IMG/VR virus record: IMGVR_UViG_3300037584_000229
Span: 1 to 39,070 of that record
DNA: 39,070 nt
Source of the DNA: a virus
Strand: one strand, 5' to 3'
Numbering within the stretch: position 1 is the first letter of the stretch; the number at the start of each line of letters is the position of its first letter. This document shows, in pieces, positions 21,646 through 23,100 of the stretch. The position numbers were made by a program, and so were the translations under genes. The notes under the pieces were generated by a model. That model was not told where the DNA came from, ran no database searches, and saw nothing but the letters and a program-made list of their open reading frames with translations.

Positions 21646-21945
21646 TTAATGCTGTGTTTTAGTTTGTTCCACTGTTTCTTCATAGTCATTCTCCCACTCT
21701 CTTCTTCTATCAGGATCTAAAACATCTTTTCTACGTAGGTATCCTTCAAGATACATACATCTTTCTATCCTATCTAAAGATTCCCAGTTGCCTGTGTGTT
21801 CAAAGTAGGCTCTACGCACGTAAAAGACATCTGATCTAGGGATGTGAACCCTTCTCATCTTTCTTTCATCTGCGTTGGCTAGTGCGTTGTAGAACTCTTC
21901 CAGTACTGAGTCAGACTCAAAGTACTTTATTCTATTTTTACTCAT
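21646..21945 (-). CDS. First gene of the late operon, unknown
   Basis: 99 residues, charged and helical, with VHIPRSDVFYVRRAYFEHTG followed by NWESLDRIERCMYLEGYLRR, a pattern I recall from other marine phage proteins without function. It is promoter-proximal on the minus strand, with a sigma70-like promoter and a TACTTNAAGTA palindrome directly upstream. No HTH is evident and no membrane span. As the first late gene it could be a late regulator, but nothing in the sequence demonstrates that. Confidence 0.65.
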   Translation of the reverse strand: MSKNRIKYFESDSVLEEFYNALANADERKMRRVHIPRSDVFYVRRAYFEHTGNWESLDRIERCMYLEGYLRRKDVLDPDRRREWENDYEETVEQTKTQH

Positions 21946-21986: not shown

Positions 21987-22171
21987 TATTATCTTTTATT
22001 TATTTTCAATAAATGGACAACAAAAGCAGATATGGGGTACTGTTAGTATTACTTTAAGTAATTACTGTTAGTATTCTTATAGTAGAATATAAATATAAGA
22101 ATAATAATAAAAGAATTAATACTTTAAGTATTACTATAAGTATATACTATTAGTTATACTGACTTCAAGTA
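21963..22171. promoter_or_regulatory. TACTTNAAGTA palindrome cluster
   Basis: Copies: 21963-21973 TACTTAAAGTA; 22048-22062 ATTACTTTAAGTAAT (15 bp perfect); 22117-22133 TAATACTTTAAGTATTA (17 bp perfect); 22132-22142 TACTATAAGTA (degenerate); 22161-22171 GACTTCAAGTA. A perfect 13-bp copy occurs outside this region at 29208-29220. Odd-centred palindromes repeated at promoters are typical operators for dimeric DNA-binding proteins. Confidence 0.6.
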
Positions 22172-22502
22172 TAAAACAACAGGTTAATACCGCCCAAGTC
22201 ATTATGTCACACCCATAATACGTAAGCATATATTCTTATATCTTGTTATAAGTAGGATAAACCCCCTGTCATCCAGTAAGATATATTTATTTTTATTCTT
22301 ATACAGCTTCATAACCTTAGTTATATCCAGGTTTAGACGTATCACAAGTGTAAACCACTTGATTTACAATGTGGTTAACAGTCAAAAAATACCCCTCTCT
22401 GTCATTGGGTATATATATAGTACGTATACCCCCCTACCGTCCCATGCCACCCTACGGACTAGACCTTGTGTTTATACATTCAAATATTACAATATGTATA
22501 GA

Positions 22503-22615
22503 TAGTTTAACATTAAACTAGTTTTTACATTTAGTTTAAACCTAAACTATAAAATGGTTTAACGTTAAACTACTTTTGGTTTAATACTTAACTAAATTCG
22601 TTTAGCATTAAACTA
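22503..22615. promoter_or_regulatory. Five-site phased palindrome array TAGTTTAA-NN-TTAAACTA
   Basis: Sites at 22503-22520 (perfect 8-bp arms), 22532-22549, 22555-22572, 22577-22594 (weakest, two mismatches in the right arm) and 22598-22615. Centre spacings are 29, 23, 22 and 21 bases, so the last four are about two helical turns apart on the same DNA face. This fits cooperative binding by a dimeric regulator or an origin-binding initiator. Confidence 0.7.
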
Positions 22616-22620
22616 TTAGG

Positions 22621-22676
22621 TTTGTGATCACAAATAGATTAGGCAACTATAACACCAAGTATTACATTGTGATCAC
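22621..22676. promoter_or_regulatory. Paired GTGATCAC palindromes
   Basis: TTTGTGATCACAAA (22621-22634) is a perfect 14-bp palindrome. A second TTGTGATCAC lies at 22667-22676, centres 45 bases apart. A TATAAC box sits at 22648-22653 between them, where a rightward -10 element could be. Both also contain GATC. The sequence is distinct from a CRP site, which has six bases between TGTGA and TCACA. Likely operators of the early promoter. Confidence 0.5.
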
Positions 22677-22794: not shown

Positions 22795-23100
22795 ATGAAA
22801 ATCTTTAAAATAGAAACCGATAGAATTTATGACAATAAAGAACAAATAATAAATGTTATGTTAAAAGATAATGCTAGTTATGATGATCAGTTTTTAAAGC
22901 ATGATATTGTTTTTGTAGATAGTGTTAGAAACATAATAGGTGTTATTGATCTATCTTTTACTAGTAGTCAGGATAGAAAAGATTTTTTTGAAGTATATGA
23001 TATAACTGATTTCATTATGGGTATTTATGATGATGGGGAATATAAAATAGGTACTGAAAAAGATAAAGAACAACTAAGTTATTATGCGGCTAGATATTAA
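22795..23100 (+). CDS. First early gene, unknown
   Basis: 101 residues, acidic and very AT-rich in codon use (many Ile, Asp, Lys, Tyr). Visible text: MKIFKIETDRIYDNKEQIIN, then FLKHDIVFVDSVRNIIGVID and ITDFIMGIYDDGEYKIGTEK. No HTH, metal site or membrane span. It is the promoter-proximal rightward gene, 180 bases from the operator array, so expected to be expressed first after infection. Candidates for such a protein are takeover or anti-defence functions, but nothing specific is seen. Confidence 0.65.
   Translation: MKIFKIETDRIYDNKEQIINVMLKDNASYDDQFLKHDIVFVDSVRNIIGVIDLSFTSSQDRKDFFEVYDITDFIMGIYDDGEYKIGTEKDKEQLSYYAARY

Follow-up and report, generated by a model that had tools for sequence, protein, structure and literature searches.

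The DNA analyzed here, referred to in its entirety as the window, is a virus record of 39,070 bases; it is a fragment, and the genomes of its relatives measure about 55 kb. Its nearest named phages are CRP-9 and CRP-13, which were isolated on the RCA strain FZCC0023 (PMC8528129). In the window, the late module runs leftward and the early module rightward from an AT-rich gap, and inside this gap, 180 bp from the first early gene, lies an array of palindromic sites. The features of the region, with no strand given for palindromes, are as follows.

21646..21945, minus strand: first leftward (late) gene, function unknown, kept also in array-less relatives
22047..22133: late-side palindromes of another type, TATTACTTTAAGTAATT (22047-22063) and TAATACTTTAAGTATTA (22117-22133), phage elements
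22503..22520: site 1, TAGTTTAACATTAAACTA, 0 mismatches, a perfect match to the operator consensus
22524..22553, plus strand: possible sigma-70-like promoter toward the early genes (TTTACA, 18 bp containing site 2, TATAAA), weak and seen by eye only
22532..22549: site 2, TAGTTTAAACCTAAACTA, 1 mismatch
22555..22572: site 3, TGGTTTAACGTTAAACTA, 1 mismatch
22577..22594: site 4, TGGTTTAATACTTAACTA, 3 mismatches, the weakest
22598..22615: site 5, TCGTTTAGCATTAAACTA, 2 mismatches
22621..22634: TTTGTGATCACAAA, a perfect 14-mer five bases to the right of the array, the other operator of host type, for a GntR-family regulator that is probably AkgR
22667..22676: TTGTGATCAC, an incomplete further copy of this GntR-type operator (repeat family D9)
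22795..23100, plus strand: first rightward (early) gene, 101 aa, function unknown, no confident family

Sites, spacing, and surroundings of the array

A consensus scan of the 39-kb window identified five copies of TAGTTTAANNTTAAACTA at 22503-22615, which carry 0, 1, 1, 3, and 2 mismatches and follow one another at start-to-start spacings of 29, 23, 22, and 21 bp. They are the sole matches to TAGTTTAANNTTAAACTA in the window with three or fewer mismatches; shuffles of the whole window gave a mean of 1.13. Site 4, with three mismatches, would be weak if it stood alone, and we accepted it because it lies in register. When 131-bp clusters were simulated by a first-order Markov process with the local AT-rich kilobase as the model, the largest comprised three sites and arose once in 20,000 runs. 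The initial annotation had described five sites sharing one consensus, the first of them perfect, and all five are present at those coordinates. Its further statement that the last four sites lie about two helical turns apart fits the last three gaps, whereas the first, at 29 bp, is nearer three turns.

The possible sigma-70-like promoter at 22524..22553 was not recovered by a consensus scan. To the left of the array, at 22370-22435, GTGGTTAACAG (in 18 of 21 genomes) and repeated runs of the TATACCCC type are conserved among CRP-9-type phages and are perhaps phage promoters. Palindromes of the TAATACTTNAAGTATTA type, which lie near the first late gene, are present as well in the array-less relatives L122 and L153; host genomes showed neither enrichment of TAATACTTNAAGTATTA nor a counterpart to it, and it was rejected as a host motif. 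GC skew changes sign at 22-23 kb of the window, as would be expected anyway from divergent transcription. In agreement with the annotation's remark that none of the window's genes is an obvious source of a binder, Pfam assigned no helix-turn-helix family to any of the 37 ORFs of this fragment, whose relatives extend to ≈55 kb.

The array in other phages

We gathered relatives through two neighboring genes and a two-site pattern, obtaining 48 distinct arrays. The same gap holds the array in CRP-9 (five sites), CRP-13 (three sites), and some 20 marine contigs of related phages; its sites are spaced at close to 22 or 31-32 bp and number two to six per phage genome. Among 21 distinct genomes set in the same frame, its start is ≈370-630 bp from the first late gene, except in one case at 912 bp. 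The 117 spacings of the 48 arrays are distributed in classes, with 24 at 20-25 bp, 92 at 28-34 bp, none at 26-27 or 35-41 bp, and one at 42 bp. Because the two-site pattern that was the source of most arrays permitted 19-49 bp, the empty classes are not a search artefact. The occupied classes correspond to two or three turns, so that the sites point to approximately the same side of the helix. As first described, the early/late divide indeed holds a helically phased array of operator-like character. At their center, most phage sites have a pyrimidine-purine step (CG, CA/TG, or TA).

The array is absent, with at most single scattered matches, from HMO-2011, CRP-1, CRP-2, CRP-207, CRP-212, CRP-235, CRP-345, CRP-603, CRP-738, HTVC033P, CRP-5, and ICBM2. 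Three further contigs without it (G027, G028, and G029) have replication-module and late-module families in common with array-bearing phages, indicating that the array can be lost or replaced. Relatives that lack the array while keeping both flanking modules were the observation that the initial annotation had named as telling against it, and these three contigs provide it in part; where present, the array is well conserved.

Unrelated phages also carry the array, and in three of them (L027, L047, and L073) it lies upstream of probable terminase genes. Separately, a 41-kb contig (G002) contains at L054 8170-8297 six TGGTTTAANNTTAAACCR palindromes spaced exactly 22 bp apart, in the vicinity of a protein that weakly resembles DnaA_N; this array is perhaps convergent and iteron-like.

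Host operators of the same sequence and their candidate regulators

We scanned bacterial genomes for two neighboring copies of the palindrome and found such pairs, in Alpha- and Gammaproteobacteria, upstream of an operon whose products are a MarR-family regulator and an Acg-family oxidoreductase. This MarR/Acg-family FMN-binding oxidoreductase operon (NF047509) shares the 18-bp palindrome, in pairs 20-27 bp apart, and its MarR has the same recognition helix; its two sites, however, form a local operator of their own operon and occur neither at the host genes described next nor in a phage. Matches in Enterobacteriaceae and Enterococcus, with the same core and a CG center, were judged from two loci read to be different systems; the palindrome core lies beside a LacI-type gene in locus L171 and beside a transport operon in locus L184. 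In marine alphaproteobacterial MAGs (L177, L191, and L192), GTTTAACGTTAAAC pairs 35 bp apart stand beside carbohydrate-utilization genes, perhaps marking a LacI-type sugar regulon.

For the Rhodobacteraceae, we located a family center through an aroA protein of Ruegeria pomeroyi and examined 296 genomes. The phage palindrome occurs in 242 of them, usually as one to three sites; the reversed control pattern was mostly at 0, except in some small genomes in which both were frequent. Sixty-one of 68 host sites read are situated from −13 to +39 bp relative to the start codon of pdhA (pyruvate dehydrogenase E1-alpha, 25 sites), maeB (malic enzyme, 18 sites), or lpd (dihydrolipoamide dehydrogenase, 18 sites), and domain searches concur with these gene assignments. 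This position at the start codon suggests repression. Host and phage site profiles agree, including at the variable positions and in the mostly pyrimidine-purine center; pdhA, maeB, and lpd form a small Rhodobacteraceae regulon marked by the palindrome. The consensus search that the annotation had suggested returned matches in related phages and in the host family, and its idea of a new, phage-specific operator finds no support: the same sequence is a host-family operator. The phage array itself is not immediately upstream of pdhA, maeB, or lpd; its place between the early and late modules points to an operator-like function, yet one outside the host regulon.

Which host protein might read these sites is suggested by the MarR family. 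Among 385 alphaproteobacterial genomes, the top 16 MarR loci, chosen by protein alone, all have one or two palindromes in the upstream region of the operon. Of the 296 Rhodobacteraceae genomes, 262 possess such a MarR; the palindromes at the operons of same-helix orthologues are outside that family. Recognition helix and operator covary across the three MarR groups that we compared. The helix VTKGAMTN accompanies the phage-type operator TAGTTTAANNTTAAACTA upstream of its own operon, whereas Rhodobacteraceae subtype 1 (L302-L330), with the helix VPKTSMTH, has the operator TAGTNCGATATCGNACTA at the same place in many loci, a pairing that amounts to a naturally occurring shift in specificity inside a single MarR family. 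The third group, which we name the A4 type, is a near-universal Rhodobacteraceae MarR-family protein (259 of 296 genomes) with the recognition helix VTRGAMTN.

The A4-type gene is near comF, grxC, a nitrilase gene, and ubiG in several of the loci read. None of 20 loci has a site beside it, so that its link to pdhA, maeB, and lpd is indirect; we predict that these are nevertheless its sites. The sites are missing from 24 of 37 genomes that lack the A4 type, compared with 30 of 259 that have it (Fisher p = 9e-12, with shared ancestry not corrected), and 13 genomes have sites and no A4-type match. Our first MarR reading, limited to the MarR-Acg operon, was revised in view of the differing subtype 1 operator and the 20 A4-type loci without an adjacent site. 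A search of plasmids for named Rhodobacteraceae orthologues yielded nothing useful. On these comparisons of helices, operators, and genome distributions, the A4-type MarR-family protein is the likeliest binder of the array.

The array could instead be a host operator whose binder is CceR, a regulator of the LacI family that governs central carbon metabolism in alphaproteobacteria, the apparent MarR link then reflecting two regulators with look-alike sites. In R. sphaeroides, the motif predicted for CceR (RSP_1663) is [A/G/T]GTT-N6-8-AAC[A/C/T], and malic enzyme and PdhAB have been assigned to it computationally (PMC4344238); in P. denitrificans, deletion of cceR lowers MaeB (PMC11323563). The consensus AGTT-TAANNTTA-AACT fits this motif with N8, malic enzyme and PdhAB are common predicted targets, and the 13 genomes with sites and no A4-type match also favor CceR. 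The predicted CceR regulon is, however, broad (Mdh, PckA, Sdh, Zwf, and others) and its sites fall into two spacer classes (PMC4344238), whereas the palindrome of array and host is of the N8 class only, lies mostly at pdhA, maeB, and lpd, and does not always have a CG center. CceR, moreover, activates MaeB, and sites at a start codon occupy a repressor-like position. LacI-family sites usually keep a CG center, which only 30 of the 61 host sites possess. Together with these points, the covariation of helix and operator and the autoregulatory placement favor MarR, and we regard CceR as a rival of low likelihood.

A second operator of host type adjoins the array. Of 149 Rhodobacteraceae genomes, 22 contain TTTGTGATCACAAA, each a single time (control, 0). 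In the roseobacter loci read (L439-L454), it is found repeatedly at a GntR/FCD-family gene, and two of these loci have it between sucC and mdh or next to them. The regulon predicted for the GntR-family regulator AkgR (RSP_0981) of R. sphaeroides includes succinyl-CoA synthetase (PMC4344238), which fits the occurrence of TTTGTGATCACAAA at sucC/mdh and a GntR/FCD-family gene. TTTGTGATCACAAA is probably an AkgR-type operator, the likeness being one of family and target only. Among the phage regions, 14 of the 21 that bear the array contain it, as do 12 of the 26 array-poor ones, including array-less roseophages such as CRP-1, CRP-2, CRP-345, and CRP-603.

Proposed host control of phage transcription and its alternatives

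We consider it somewhat better than an even prospect that the array is an operator cluster for a host-encoded regulator, with MarR as the binder, and that the carbon status of the host gates phage transcription through it. MarR dimers would occupy adjacent sites along a single face of the phage DNA, in the control region that separates the two divergent modules, and phage transcription would then follow the pyruvate/acetyl-CoA status of the host. The adjoining operator for the GntR-family regulator of the TCA cycle would add a second metabolic input. The sequences themselves show the array with its conservation and phasing, its identity with the host operator, the gene context in the host, and the joint variation of helix and operator; of the model, we infer the binding to phage DNA, the identity of the binder, its ligand, and the phage promoter affected along with the direction of the effect.

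Alternatively, the array may act as a decoy, multiplied by phage replication until it draws a scarce repressor of the host away from the one to three host sites. Pyruvate dehydrogenase and malic enzyme would rise as a result, and with them acetyl-CoA and NADPH during infection, an outcome that is compatible with the main model. The numbers suit such titration, with two to six sites per phage genome against usually one to three per host genome, and the host sites are placed where a repressor would act. A decoy, however, requires neither a fixed position between early and late modules nor an adjacent second host operator, and we give titration as the role of the array roughly the same low likelihood as CceR. 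The weights that we attach to MarR, CceR, and the decoy overlap in part, and the three are not mutually exclusive.

Considerably less probable is a lambda-like switch in which the array serves an unrecognized phage-encoded regulator as its operator. Its position at the early/late divide and the many small phage genes of no known function would accord with this idea, as would a winged-helix protein, small and weakly similar to MarR, that CRP-13-type phages alone encode (1991-2323 of L157, which is CRP-13; also L049, L068, and L240). That protein is absent from the window, however, and a phage regulator would not explain why the array matches the host pdhA/maeB/lpd operator. A lambda-type switch has a phage-encoded repressor of its operator, whereas neither the 37 ORFs of the fragmentary window nor the lineages compared supplied one: we found no gene family common to all array-bearing lineages, which eliminated such a family as the binder in the set compared, and no close MarR homologue in the phage loci or the named phages. 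The first late gene was also rejected as the binder, as it occurs in array-less relatives too. ParB/parS-like and KorA-like sites are other candidate readings of such an array and were dropped for want of gene support.

An origin iteron set, as the initial annotation had also proposed, or a packaging site is the least credible reading, being hardly to be expected despite the GC-skew flip at 22-23 kb, the terminase-proximal arrays of the three unrelated phages, and the six 22-bp-spaced copies beside a gene with a weak match to DnaA_N in L054, given that the skew follows divergent transcription, that in the window's clade the terminase genes are ≈7 kb away and no initiator family was found among the genes flanking the array, and that the host-operator identity is again unexplained. 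The GC skew, which had been suggested as a check, does show the sign flip, but divergent transcription produces it equally, and the origin idea finds no support in the clade.

Returning to the array as an operator cluster for a host regulator, we note that phages are already known to use the sites of a host regulator. Cyanophage pho boxes are phage sites read by the host regulator PhoB and serve host-derived auxiliary genes under phosphate stress. Like the array as we interpret it, they are phage-borne sites for a host metabolic regulator that respond to the nutrient state of the host; the array differs in being phased, in its position at the early/late divide, and in having no adjacent auxiliary metabolic gene. 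A search of the open literature returned no report of the array, nor of TAGTTTAA as an operator. Within that literature, what is new is that a phage bears, at its early/late divide, a host central-carbon operator repeated in a phased array, adjacent to a second host metabolic operator.

A broader proposition, which we put forward only tentatively and hold to be possible rather than probable, is that an abundant marine phage lineage has placed its early/late control under host pyruvate and 2-oxoglutarate regulators by means of captured operator arrays, without a phage-encoded regulator, and that a host MarR controls the pdhA/maeB/lpd regulon so far credited by prediction to CceR. If true, defined DNA sites would link phage expression in a dominant marine bacterial group to the carbon status of the host, and phage sensing of host physiology would be directly testable with CRP-9 on RCA strain FZCC0023. 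The findings also point to a regulator of the core pyruvate regulon (pdhA, maeB, and lpd), whose sites are present in most Rhodobacteraceae, and illustrate how a host regulon can be traced from an operator array in a phage.
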